Assembly: GCF_030409835.1 (NCBI RefSeq)
Contig: NZ_JAUFQO010000002.1
Span: 62,001-126,000 of the forward strand
Source of the DNA: Lutimonas halocynthiae
GTDB lineage: Bacteria > Bacteroidota > Bacteroidia > Flavobacteriales > Flavobacteriaceae
DNA length: 64,000 bases
Direction of reading: 5' to 3'
Part shown: one piece after another, positions 26,774-31,569 of the stretch
Numbering within the stretch: the first letter of the stretch is position 1
How the letters are laid out: each line of letters starts with the position of its first letter
Position numbers and translations under genes: made by a program
The notes under the pieces: generated by a model
What the model was told of the DNA's origin: nothing
Database searches by the model: none
What the model saw: only the letters and a program-made list of their open reading frames with translations

Positions 26774-28771
<1,998 letters not shown>

Positions 28772-28871
28772 TTATAGGTGTTTTTTTTACATTTTTAAAG
28801 CGTAGAAGTTATCAACATTATTAGAGGTGTGAACCTTTAGATTCTTTGATCTATTCAATGGTTTTTGGGCA

Positions 28872-29082
28872 TAAAAAAAACCTGTTCAGATTAACTCTAA
28901 ACAGGTTTTTTTTGTTCTGCAAATTAAAATAGCTTAATATTTGTATTATTTGCATTGTTGATCACATTCGAGATACTATTCCCCTCAGTCCAATATTCTT
29001 ATGTTGATCAACTTTTATGATAAACTAAAAGTTTACTTTTTTACTAAGACCTAAACCCAAGACATGCTTGCAATTTAAATCT
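28872..29082 (-). ncRNA. candidate small RNA A (first of a tandem pair)
   Basis: Predicted transcript of about 210 bases on the minus strand, from just after the exact -7 element TACATTTG (29094-29087) to the intrinsic terminator at 28874-28912. Within it are a hairpin TAAACT/AGTTTA (29021-29035), a second hairpin GTTGATCA/TGATCAAC (28957-28964 with 29005-29012) whose loop carries GAGGGGAAT (28986-28978), a small ATTAA-GCTATT-TTAAT hairpin near 28922-28938, and the terminator. No convincing reading frame is present. The copy at 29148-29367 has the same layout with different stem sequences. Not a family I can name; it is not obviously 6S RNA. Confidence 0.6.
28874..28912 (-). terminator. intrinsic terminator of candidate sRNA A
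   Basis: Stem CCTGTT (28881-28886) with AACAGG (28900-28905), extended by A/T runs of eight bases on either side. On the minus strand it ends in eight T. No protein gene ends here, which is what pointed to a noncoding transcript. Confidence 0.85.
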
Positions 29083-29086
29083 GTGA

Positions 29087-29132
29087 CAAATGTAATTGCT
29101 AATTCTGAAGAAAATCTGAAGTTTTGTTCAGA
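29087..29132 (-). promoter_or_regulatory. promoter and OmpR-type operator of sRNA A
   Basis: Read on the minus strand: TCTGAA (29132-29127), 6 bases, TTCAGA (29120-29115), 5 bases, TTCAGA (29109-29104), 9 bases, TACATTTG (29094-29087). The two TTCAGA boxes are 11 bp apart and sit where a -33 element would be, which is absent. The same geometry recurs at sRNA B. Confidence 0.6.
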
Positions 29133-29147
29133 ATTAGATTTTTTTTT

Positions 29148-29186
29148 AAAAAAGCCTGTAAAAATATAATCTTTACAGGCTCTTTA
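29148..29186 (-). terminator. intrinsic terminator of candidate sRNA B
   Basis: A perfect 10-bp stem, AGCCTGTAAA (29153-29162) and TTTACAGGCT (29172-29181), followed on the minus strand by a T run. Confidence 0.85.
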
Positions 29187-29367
29187 TTCAATTAAAACAG
29201 CTTAATGCTTCAAATGATTTGCCTGATTCTATTTGTTAGGTTCCATTCCCCTCAAAACTTTGCCGTTTAAATAGAATGAGCTTGTATCTTCTTTGTTATT
29301 TCAGTATTCATAGCATGAATTTTTGAACGTTCTGAAATAGTCATTTAAATAAATAACAATCAGATAA
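29148..29367 (-). ncRNA. candidate small RNA B (second of a tandem pair)
   Basis: Predicted transcript of about 220 bases on the minus strand, from just after TACATTTG (29380-29373) to the terminator at 29148-29186. It has a hairpin with arms TATTTCAG/CTGAAATA (29297-29304 with 29332-29339) capped by ATTCAT/ATGAAT, a second hairpin ATTCTATTT/AAATAGAAT (29226-29234 with 29269-29277) with GAGGGGAAT in its loop (29253-29245), the conserved ATTAA-GCTGTT-TTAAT element (29190-29206) and the terminator. Promoters of copies A and B are 286 bases apart. It lies 60-70 bases downstream of the histidine kinase stop codon. Confidence 0.6.
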
Positions 29368-29372
29368 CGGGA

Positions 29373-29418
29373 CAAATGTAAGTGGCATTTCTAAAGGAAA
29401 TCTGAAGAAAAATTCAGA
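29373..29418 (-). promoter_or_regulatory. promoter and OmpR-type operator of sRNA B
   Basis: Read on the minus strand: TCTGAA (29418-29413), 6 bases, TTCAGA (29406-29401), 5 bases, TTTAGA (29395-29390), 9 bases, TACATTTG (29380-29373). Every spacing equals that of the sRNA A promoter, although the spacer bases differ. Confidence 0.6.
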
Positions 29419-29439
29419 TTTTGTTAAAGTTTATTTTTT

Positions 29440-30687
29440 TTAAAAATAGATAGAGATATTGTGCTGATCCTCAGCATATGAGTGTGTTATTTTCCATTTA
29501 TTGTTGTCACATATCTTTTTCACAATCGCCAAACCTAGTCCAAAAGAGTTACTTGCAGTACTTTCTTTTTTGAATCTTTCAAATAGGGCTTCAGATTCTA
29601 TTTTAGGTGGAATGCCAGAATTCGAAACACTAACAAATAGGTTGGTGGTTAGAATTTCAATATGCCCGCCATCTACGTTGTGTTTAATGGCATTGCTGAT
29701 AAGATTAGATATGATCATGTCAAACAGAAGTGGGTTCGCTTTCAATTCAACTTCCAGCGTTGACTTCATTTCTACTTTCAAATTTTTATTTTCAATAAAA
29801 TCTTCAAAAATTTCTAAATGTCTTTCAATAACCTGGTTTACTTGGATCAATTCTACATCTTTAAACTGTCTGTTCTCTATTTTAGAGAGGAGTAGCAGGG
29901 TTTTATTAAGCTTAGAAAGTCTTTGTACAGATTGGTATATAACTCTTATTTGTGAAACCTGCCCCTCGTCTAAATTGTCTGACTGAAGCAAAAGCTCCGA
30001 TTTAGATTGCATGATCGCCAATGGGGTCTGCATTTCATGTGATGCATTTTCAGTAAATTCTTTTAAATTATTGAAATCAGAATTGATCTTAGAGGTGAGT
30101 TTTGATAAAGAGTTATTTAGCTCCTGAAATTCATCAATGTCTGATTCACTTAATTGAATAGGGCGATTGTTTTCAACAGAAAAATTCTTTAATGTTTCCA
30201 GGTTACGATAAAATGGAAGCCAGACTTTTCTCATTACAAAGGAGTTCACAAAATAAACAGTGAGAATCATGATGAAAATGATGATCCCAACAGACAGTGT
30301 TACCCCTAAAATAAAATCTTGATTTCGCATAATCGAACTCCGCGTGATTATGCGATAGGTTTTTCCTTGCAAAGTTTCTACCGAGGTTAGTTGTCGATAG
30401 AGTTCATAGTTCTCAACATTATTGACAACCTGATACATTAACGTATCCTTGTAATATAAGGTGTCCTTTATAGGTGTTTTAGATTTAAAATCTTCAACGT
30501 CGAAAATAGGGAGGGGGTATTCATATTTGATCTTCCTGGCAATAAGTTCTTTATCCCATAACAGTTTTTCATCCTGTTTCTCACTTACGATATTCTTTAG
30601 TGTGAAATAAACTATAGAACCGGAAAGTATAAAAATAATAACCGAGTAAGTAATGTGTGTTTTACGTGTTTTTTCAAATAATTTCAC
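29440..30687 (-). CDS. two-component sensor histidine kinase
   Basis: A 415-residue membrane kinase. Helix 1 is at about 13-33, a roughly 100-residue periplasmic sensor follows, and helix 2 is at about 133-158. The phosphoacceptor is His217 in ASHEMQTPLAIM, an H-box variant common in Bacteroidota. The ATPase domain has the N-box ISNLISNAIKHN and the G-box FGLGLAIVKKI; the usual DxGxG G1 box is reduced to VSNSGIPP. It is downstream of the response regulator gene (72-base gap) and is its obvious partner. The signal is unknown. The two candidate sRNA genes lie directly downstream on the same strand. Confidence 0.92.
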   Translation of the reverse strand: MKLFEKTRKTHITYSVIIFILSGSIVYFTLKNIVSEKQDEKLLWDKELIARKIKYEYPLPIFDVEDFKSKTPIKDTLYYKDTLMYQVVNNVENYELYRQLTSVETLQGKTYRIITRSSIMRNQDFILGVTLSVGIIIFIMILTVYFVNSFVMRKVWLPFYRNLETLKNFSVENNRPIQLSESDIDEFQELNNSLSKLTSKINSDFNNLKEFTENASHEMQTPLAIMQSKSELLLQSDNLDEGQVSQIRVIYQSVQRLSKLNKTLLLLSKIENRQFKDVELIQVNQVIERHLEIFEDFIENKNLKVEMKSTLEVELKANPLLFDMIISNLISNAIKHNVDGGHIEILTTNLFVSVSNSGIPPKIESEALFERFKKESTASNSFGLGLAIVKKICDNNKWKITHSYAEDQHNISIYF

Positions 30688-30759: not shown

Positions 30760-31434
30760 TTATTCGCCAAATTTATATCCCAGACCATAGATGGTTTGAA
30801 GATAGTCATTTGCACCACTTTTTTTGAGTTTTTTTCTCAGGTTTCTCATATGGGTGTAGATGAAATCAAAATTATCCACCATATCTATATTGTCTCCCCA
30901 CAAATGTTCCGCAATAGCCTCTTTAGTTAAAACCCTATTTTTATTGGTAATAAAATAAAGCAAGAGAAAATATTCCTTTTTAGTCAGGTCAAGTTTAACC
31001 CCATTTGCGACGGTTGTTTTTGCAACGGGATCAATTTCGATCTCCTGGTAAACAATATTGTTATTTCCTTCATATTTTCTTCTTCTGAGTAAAGAATTAA
31101 CCCTGGAATTAAGCTCAGCTAAATGAAAGGGTTTTGTGATATAATCATCAGCTCCTAAATCCAGACCTTTCAATCTGTCGTCTAAAGAATCTTTCGCCGA
31201 AACAATTAGAACACCTGTTTCAGGACTCTTCTGCTTTATAAACTTTAATAAATCCAGGCCATTGCCATCAGGTAAGTTGATGTCAAGAATAACCACATCG
31301 TAATTATAGGAAATCAGTTTGTCCTCAGCCTCAAAAAAATTTGGAGCAGATTCGCAAACGAAATCTTCTTTTTCCAAATACCCACATGTTGCATTTAGCA
31401 ACTCAATCTCATCCTCTACTATCAATAGTTTCAT
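30760..31434 (-). CDS. OmpR-family response regulator
   Basis: A 224-residue regulator. The receiver domain has acidic pocket VEDE, phosphoacceptor Asp51 (VVILDINLPDG), the conserved Ser/Thr region VSAKD and Lys in DDYITKPFHLAEL. The winged-helix output domain (about 128-222) includes LTKKEYFLLLYFITNKNRVLTKEAIAEHLWG and ends TIYGLGYKFGE. I start at ATG 31434 because the receiver strand begins there; the frame to 31458 reaches the promoter element. OmpR-type outputs bind 11-bp-phased direct repeats like those in front of the two sRNA genes. Confidence 0.94.
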   Translation of the reverse strand: MKLLIVEDEIELLNATCGYLEKEDFVCESAPNFFEAEDKLISYNYDVVILDINLPDGNGLDLLKFIKQKSPETGVLIVSAKDSLDDRLKGLDLGADDYITKPFHLAELNSRVNSLLRRRKYEGNNNIVYQEIEIDPVAKTTVANGVKLDLTKKEYFLLLYFITNKNRVLTKEAIAEHLWGDNIDMVDNFDFIYTHMRNLRKKLKKSGANDYLQTIYGLGYKFGE

Positions 31435-31455
31435 TTCTAATAATTTAAGGTTGTA

Positions 31456-31483
31456 CAAAAATAGTATATAATTGATATACTAT
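31456..31483 (-). promoter_or_regulatory. promoter with overlapping palindrome of the two-component operon
   Basis: TATTTTTG on the minus strand (31463-31456), an exact TAnnTTTG, overlaps a palindrome with arms ATAGTATA (31461-31468) and TATACTAT (31476-31483). A protein bound there would cover the -7 region and would be expected to repress (inference). Confidence 0.5.
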
Positions 31484-31496
31484 CTCATTTAAATCC

Positions 31497-31569
31497 GTTT
31501 TAACAGATAATTGACAATCTACCATGTTATAAATTGTCAGTTTTGATTTAACCTTATTTCTGTTAAAAC
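31497..31569. repeat. 11-bp inverted repeat in the divergent regulatory region
   Basis: GTTTTAACAGA at 31497-31507 and its exact reverse complement at 31559-31569. Between them is a second, shorter inverted pair, TTGACAAT (31511-31518) with ATTGTCA (31533-31539). Located between the response regulator and the first DUF2911 gene; likely regulatory, binding protein unknown. Confidence 0.55.

Follow-up and report, generated by a model that had tools for sequence, protein, structure and literature searches.

In Lutimonas halocynthiae, the interval from a sensor kinase gene (29440-30687) to gyrB (26774-28735) contains two tandem minus-strand units that resemble small-RNA genes. With a probability that we put at roughly 0.7, they encode sibling small RNAs (sRNAs) under two-component control that repress the translation of envelope proteins by pairing a hairpin loop with start codons. 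Positions given without a contig refer to the window, the whole stretch of 64,000 nucleotides that was analysed (GCF_030409835.1, contig NZ_JAUFQO010000002.1, positions 62,001 to 126,000 of the forward strand). In both units, A and B, an operator of the form TTCAGA-N5-TTYAGA is followed by the TACATTTG box, by a first structured region and a hairpin whose loop contains GAGGGGAAU, and then by a ATTAAGCTRTTTTAAT element and an intrinsic terminator; the two operators are 286 bases apart. A first-pass annotation had described two minus-strand units about 286 bases apart with these elements in this order; direct inspection confirmed the layout, and the second-hairpin stems quoted for the two units are present and both perfect. 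The features of the region are as follows.

30760..31458, minus strand: OmpR/PhoB-type response regulator gene (receiver and Trans_reg_C; Pfam PF00072 and PF00486), first gene of a putative operon
29440..30687, minus strand: PorY-family sensor histidine kinase gene (NCBIfam NF052314.1 T9SS_HK_PorY; Pfam HisKA and HATPase_c)
29390..29406, minus strand: operator A, TTCAGA-N5-TTTAGA direct repeat with 11-bp pitch (sequence)
29373..29380, minus strand: putative -7 promoter element TACATTTG of unit A (26-nt spacing from operator start)
29148..29366, minus strand: sRNA A, predicted at about 219 nt (start set by the -7 box, end by the terminator)
29297..29339, minus strand: first hairpin of unit A, TATTTCAG...CTGAAATA (strong conservation in first units, by eye)
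29226..29277, minus strand: second hairpin of unit A, ATTCTATTT/AAATAGAAT, with loop GAGGGGAAT at 29245-29253 (local fold)
29191..29206, minus strand: ATTAAGCTGTTTTAAT element of unit A, of the ATTAAGCTRTTTTAAT type (sequence)
about 29148..29180, minus strand: predicted intrinsic terminator A (sequence and fold)
29104..29120, minus strand: operator B, TTCAGA-N5-TTCAGA (sequence)
29087..29094, minus strand: putative -7 promoter element TACATTTG of unit B (sequence)
28872..29080, minus strand: sRNA B, predicted at about 209 nt (sequence and fold)
28957..29012, minus strand: second hairpin of unit B, GTTGATCA/TGATCAAC, with loop GAGGGGAAT at 28978-28986, the proposed seed (fold and covariation)
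28918..28954, minus strand: third hairpin of unit B, TGCAAAT...ATTTGCA around ATTAAGCTATTTTAAT (near-invariant across 22 aligned units)
28923-28938, minus strand: ATTAAGCTRTTTTAAT element of unit B (sequence)
28872..28912, minus strand: predicted intrinsic terminator B (sequence and fold)
26774..28735, minus strand: gyrB, the far-side flank of the array, outside the circuit (Pfam; neighbour of the array at 20 of 21 loci)

According to the proposed mechanism, the adjacent PorY-family kinase and OmpR-type regulator would sense an envelope condition, and the phosphorylated regulator would bind the 11-bp direct-repeat operator and activate the own promoter of each unit. Each RNA of about 210-220 nt would expose UGAGGGGAAU within the loop of a hairpin whose stem covaries. 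The loop UGAGGGGA would pair with UCCCCUC at the starts of mRNAs for outer-membrane and secreted proteins, DUF5723 being the clearest case, and pairing over the start codons would block translation initiation. The units, their conservation, the covarying stem, the operator-promoter geometry with its link to the kinase and the complement at DUF5723 were found by computation, while expression, binding by the regulator, repression as the direction of the effect and the signal are parts of the mechanism that we infer from sequence.

No terminator is visible by eye in the 33 bases between the kinase stop codon and operator A; the kinase mRNA therefore probably continues into unit A and ends at terminator A. 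Terminator A is thus probably shared with the kinase mRNA, and the earlier statement that the two terminators serve these units alone is probably mistaken. The exact operator-plus-box pattern occurs at the two array sites only in the 3.99 Mb genome; looser boxes exist elsewhere in it. The loop sequence GAGGGGAAT alone is not improbable, with 2 matches in the window against 0.62 expected and as many in 13 of 100 shuffles. A scan with 4,227 Rfam models gave no match in the window at gathering cut-offs, a permissive scan of 28700-29600 gave sub-cut-off matches only, and ARAGORN found no tRNA or tmRNA gene.

Units of this type occur in all 22 analysed genomes of the genus Lutimonas, with Lutimonas saemankumensis as a named species among the array-carrying congeners, and also in one other genus. 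Close examination covered 21 loci, those of the own genome and 20 congeners; the remaining congener (G010, L185), kept apart from these, carries two operator-bearing units at the edge of a contig. The array was found 3' of the kinase gene in 20 of the 21 loci and 5' of gyrB in 20. GAGGGG loops number two in 11 loci, three in 9 and one in 1, for a total of 50. When counting began from the operators, a selection that makes the test of the loop non-circular, 44 of 45 operators were followed by a GAGGGG before the next operator; one operator lacked a loop, and 6 of the 50 loops had no pattern operator in front. The earlier claim of a conserved G-rich loop is therefore upheld without selection for the loop itself. 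The reading as a diverged duplicate pair of regulatory RNAs is likewise supported, except that the pair belongs to a genus-wide array rather than to a recent local event.

A DNA search of 60 genomes gave strong matches in the genus and weak ones outside it (best E 7.8e-4). The covariance-model search of Flavobacteriaceae suggested in the first-pass annotation recovered the family, with matches to model R1 in 5 of 349 genomes and 2 of 237 genera; its filters were strict enough to miss unit A of the own genome, and absence beyond the matched genera is therefore unproven. The second genus (G189, contig C34; L055 1384-1951 in array orientation) carries two adjacent units with a spacing of 284 bases that are identical at 278 of 284 bases, all six differences falling within or close to the promoter box. 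This pair is, provided the assembly is correct, a fresh tandem duplication of a whole predicted sRNA unit. Arrays of one to three units and this near-identical 284-base duplication in one relative suggest that the array is still growing and shrinking. A pattern match in a Lentisphaeria MAG (L039) was rejected, as it reads as coding sequence.

The predicted full-length RNAs fold better than all 200 shuffles, with z-scores of -6.1 for unit B and -4.3 for unit A. The loop of unit B is mostly open in the full-length fold. The quoted second-hairpin stem of unit A forms in the local fold, is replaced by another in the full-length minimum-free-energy structure, and the loop is mostly paired there as well as in the full-length ensemble. 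Across the 50 units, an analysis that left out an extra GAGGGG-like copy (GAGGGA, in L014), the lower-stem arms paired with their own partners at a mean of -10.80 kcal/mol, compared with -6.41 (sd 0.34) for permuted partners, and none of 20,000 permutations was as good. Within unit classes the corresponding numbers were 0 for first, 0 for last and 1 for middle units, each of 20,000. A lower-stem duplex of -7 or better was formed by the own arms in 44 of 50 units, and the own 3' arm ranked best among all 50 in 12. On the alignment of 22 units, 37 cells had both sides changed, compared with 19.6 for shuffles (0 of 500), but pairs carrying such two-sided changes were not exceptionally numerous (8 compared with 6.7; 106 of 500). 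The lower stem is only 62% paired on this 22-row alignment, where its arms are partly misaligned, and RNAalifold gave no shared pairs for the alignment of 50 rows. The lower stem of the second hairpin thus covaries across units, with a weaker signal on the alignment. The earlier proposal that stem structure is kept while sequence drifts was borne out by the arm permutations and more weakly by the alignment, and the comparison of relatives found neither stems that fail to covary nor an unconserved loop, the outcomes named beforehand as speaking against it. The first hairpin of first units (29297-29339) is by eye also among the best conserved parts of the array, and its loop shows no target trend; the third hairpin of last units is strongly conserved too.

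The neighbouring kinase scores 430 bits against NCBIfam NF052314.1 T9SS_HK_PorY (cut-off 350). The regulator combines a receiver with Trans_reg_C (Pfam), and its NCBIfam matches are of the OmpR/PhoB class, with none above cut-off among the 25 best. Kinase homologues (E <= 1e-40) are present in 24 of 120 family genomes, including the own genome and one congener, and each has an adjacent homologous regulator gene. No GAGGGG follows the kinase at any of 26 loci of other genera, in a stretch of up to 1.5 kb. At 26 nt from the operator start, TA..TT (places 1-2 and 5-6) stands for all 45 operators and the full TAnnTTTG for 33 of them. Operator-N9-TAnnTTTG, with at most two mismatches, gave 13 matches (12 distinct, L194 repeating L059) in 112.6 kb around the kinases of other genera, set beside a background of 2 matches in 1.2 Mb that comes from two genomes of the array genus and not from the kinases' own genera. 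Of the 12 distinct boxes, 11 are either upstream of the regulator gene or, on the kinase strand, no more than 0.7 kb past the kinase gene. The boxes fall in 9 of the 26 loci, and 17 show none at this tolerance. One box precedes an outer-membrane-receptor-like gene with a CarbopepD_reg_2 domain, and PepSY-like genes (one by Pfam, the others by eye) are frequent neighbours of these kinases. The nearest relative outside (G162) has a box with TACATTTG before a small secreted-protein frame. The own genome has a further box 5' of an OmpA-family lipoprotein, and another (L090) with the same 26-nt spacing, to TACTTTCG, 5' of a secreted protein without a Pfam match.

Because the fixed operator-box geometry recurs at homologous kinases of other genera, the direct-repeat operator is probably the box of the regulator, and the RNA array would on the same grounds occupy the output slot of the two-component system. 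The first-pass annotation was right about the two units and missed the adjacent kinase and regulator, the 11-bp repeat operator, the arrays of one to three units and the look-alike hairpins described below.

Candidate targets were sought at start codons. The own genome has 53 sites of GAGGGGAA, compared with 70 for the reversed control. The check for starts left out two array sites and a cluster on contig C1; among the 41 sites checked, 8 had a candidate start nearby on the complement strand, of which five were judged not credible by eye and three credible. These three are a DUF5723 gene (Pfam), a TTG-start Exo_endo_phos gene and a secreted protein, the last without an orthologue in the genus. 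The DUF5723 and Exo_endo_phos genes were picked for their own-genome site, and orthologues from array-carrying genera were compared; the own genome and close kin are therefore not independent in the counts that follow. In most of 18 DUF5723 orthologues, the C-rich complement of the loop lies directly at the start codon or very close to it, while the flanks diverge. Ranked by duplex energy against 1,050 background genes, 17 of the 18 starts reach the top 5% and 15 the top 1%, and a complement run of at least 6 occurs in 14 of 18 compared with 0.95% of the background. For the Exo_endo_phos gene, 11 of 20 orthologues fall in the best 5% and 9 in the best 1%. CCCCTC also stands at the start of a second gene, an Exo_endo_phos look-alike by eye, both in the own genome and in G001 (L309), where Pfam assigns the gene to Exo_endo_phos. 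Co-folding with the DUF5723 leader gains about 13 kcal/mol for unit B and about 5 for unit A.

Across ten genomes, the pattern TCCCCTCN{0,2}ATG gave 47 matches compared with 63 for the reversed control, so there is no genome-wide excess of the loop complement at starts. Twelve of the 47 matches (TCCCCTC 0-2 nt before ATG) were tagged as starts, and L272 was dropped as antisense by eye. The 11 credible starts comprise four of DUF5723 and seven others (six genes, one of them in two genomes), and all 11 have a signal peptide, a lipoprotein signal or a membrane anchor (by eye). In G011, CCCCTC is found at -14..+3 in 4 of 710 genes and other letter orders in 0-1. Five of the seven best start matches of the loop in this genome are signal-peptide-like, a number reached by none of 100 scrambled loops (background 162 of 710); the top 15 hold 8 (0 of 100 scrambles) and the top 25 hold 10 (4 of 100). 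Control windows gave 4 of 7 within the coding region (+20..+54) and 0 of 7 at -60..-26. A sample of 395 own-genome genes gave 4 of 7 (11 of 60 scrambles as good) and 8 of 15 (7 of 60), which is not significant. The genes of these samples are longest-ORF calls, and signal peptides were assigned by a crude hydrophobicity rule. The start matches suggest a trend towards signal-peptide genes, significant in one of the two genome samples only. The loops of the first and third hairpins showed no such trend in G011 (1 and 0 of the top 7). Prediction with the loop against start regions, as proposed at the outset, was thus rewarded at the DUF5723 start and not by any genome-wide excess; retention of the C-rich complement at the start codon of DUF5723 lends support to the idea of a target-pairing seed.

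Hairpins with the same loop also occur away from the arrays. The sequence TGAGGGGAAT is present in 22 of 22 genomes of the genus, and 4 of 11 noncoding sites outside arrays (L094, L142, L162 and L173) form the loop hairpin. Three of these four score in the best 1% of shuffles by duplex, compared with 1 of 49 coding sites, and two adjoin protein frames (by eye). In L094 1494-1581 (G000:C8, about 369785-369872), a GAGGGGAAT hairpin stands with a TACATTTG box, a strong terminator and a different upstream inverted repeat; five other genomes of the genus gave weak partial matches only. L142 (G009) has the same-loop hairpin and a terminator 3' of a protein frame that we take to be hemerythrin-like. 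In L162 (G007) the hairpin is 5' of another frame, and L173 (G003) is a free-standing same-loop unit with a box and, by eye, a terminator.

Other readings of these data were considered. CCCCTC at the DUF5723 start could be a cis-acting element of translation or of the mRNA, unrelated to an sRNA, and it does adjoin another conserved leader element, ATTGCTA (by eye); its rarity at starts in G011 and its exact complementarity to the loop argue against this, and we consider the explanation unlikely. The UGAGGGGAAU hairpin loop could instead be a protein recognition site, with multicopy RNAs titrating an RNA-binding protein, much as CsrB and RsmZ titrate CsrA. A single loop motif in many copies beside a two-component system would suit such a decoy, as would the look-alikes at noncoding sites outside arrays, two of them adjoining protein frames. 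CsrB/RsmZ-type decoys, however, carry many GGA hairpins in one RNA, whereas the array units carry one GAGGGG loop each, and a decoy does not predict the complement at most DUF5723 orthologue starts; this reading seems to us quite unlikely.

Little weight is given to the view that the RNAs do pair but act mainly through the first or third hairpin, or activate instead of repressing. The strong conservation of the first hairpin in first units and of the third in last units speaks for another active part, but their loops lack the signal-peptide trend in G011, and pairing across a start codon usually represses. Finally, the units might be structured 3' untranslated regions of the kinase operon with no role in trans, a reading that draws on the likely read-through from the kinase gene into unit A and on the 6 of 50 loops without a pattern operator. 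It is very improbable in view of the 44 operators with fixed promoter spacing, each before a loop, and of the conserved stem and loop. Start-codon pairing by sRNAs under two-component control remains the preferred reading.

Known systems offer several comparisons. OmrA and OmrB of Enterobacteriaceae, placed under EnvZ-OmpR, are described in PMC4211561 as tandem siblings under OmpR-family control, with a regulon rich in outer-membrane-protein mRNAs, and as Hfq-dependent. The array likewise consists of tandem siblings, and control by an OmpR-type regulator is proposed on the grounds of operator and synteny. OmrA and OmrB are 88 and 82 nt long and conserve their ends, whereas the array RNAs are predicted at about 219 and 209 nt and conserve an internal hairpin loop. 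The OmrA/OmrB model RF00079 reached 14.8 bits in the scan of 28700-29600, below its gathering cut-off of 40 and on the opposite strand. LhrC1-5 of Listeria, according to PMC4132741, are multicopy, need the two-component system LisRK, are induced by envelope stress and impede the translation of a surface protein. The array shares with them its multiple copies and, as proposed, two-component control and a block on surface-protein translation. The LhrC host is Gram-positive, unlike that of the array, and the LhrC pairing sites are CU-rich, whereas the conserved loop of the array, UGAGGGGAAU, is G-rich and would pair with C-rich starts. The nearest described RNA by host is Rfp18 of Flavobacterium psychrophilum (Flavobacteriaceae), compared here by its description. 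PMC9723704 reports a conserved structured sRNA whose stem-loop has metalloprotease and adhesin mRNAs as predicted pairing partners. Its deletion lowered two metalloprotease mRNAs, an effect opposite in sign to the repression proposed for the array RNAs. As predicted, the array RNAs would work like OmrA/OmrB or LhrC but match neither by the sequence and motif comparisons made. The array kinase also belongs to NCBI's PorY family, like that of PorXY in Porphyromonas gingivalis; its neighbour (the adjacent gene only) is an OmpR-type regulator and not PorX. A literature search found no paper on PorY together with an sRNA, and searches on Lutimonas and on sRNAs of Flavobacteriaceae and Bacteroidota gave none on the array among the matches listed.

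A wider reading is put forward tentatively, as something we would sooner doubt than accept. The PorY-family system may have been rewired from direct control of envelope genes to an RNA output, and the dispersed same-loop hairpins may form a seed-loop superfamily with the array RNAs. The kinase gene is followed in several other genera by genes of the PepSY-like, outer-membrane-receptor-like or a similar kind. In Lutimonas and one further genus, one to three sibling sRNAs would silence surface-protein mRNAs at start codons, and dispersed hairpins under other promoters would have acquired the seed; together they would make up an sRNA regulon that brakes the outer membrane in Bacteroidota. In enterics, it is textbook knowledge that sRNAs of the envelope-stress response damp the synthesis of outer-membrane proteins; to our knowledge, few sRNA regulons have been worked out in Bacteroidota. 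In the circuit proposed for the array, each component can be identified by name, from sensor and operator to the RNA family and a conserved target site. Where other genera have protein genes in the slot after the kinase, the array genomes have RNA genes, and the slot would record in readable form how a two-component system gained an RNA output. The match of the shared loop to the starts of some surface-protein genes points to an RNA-based restraint on surface proteins, in a group of bacteria whose circuits of this kind are little known.

Some further observations were made in passing. Ten GAGGGGAA sites within 12.4 kb of contig C1 were set aside as unrelated to the array, 7 of the 10 belonging to a different repeat of the CCTCCCCTCTTGAGAGGGGA type. 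This repeat cluster (L195 6399-7750 and 12861, G000:C1) has CACACCCCT-like flanks and lies beside a gene that is presumably DUF559-like. In G011 (L322, C1, about 939828-939860), a 399-codon gene has a leader with GAGGGGAAAATTTTTAAACCCCTC, which forms a hairpin of seed and complement just 5' of the start. Nested inverted repeats, TTTTAACAGA/TCTGTTAAAA and TTGACAAT/ATTGTCA, occupy window positions 31498-31568 between the regulator gene and a divergent DUF2911 gene; the TTYAGA direct repeat was not seen there. At 28809-28817, 5' of gyrB, stands TTATCAACA, which we take to be DnaA-box-like and which is kept in 20 of 21 loci, the contig of the other ending before it.
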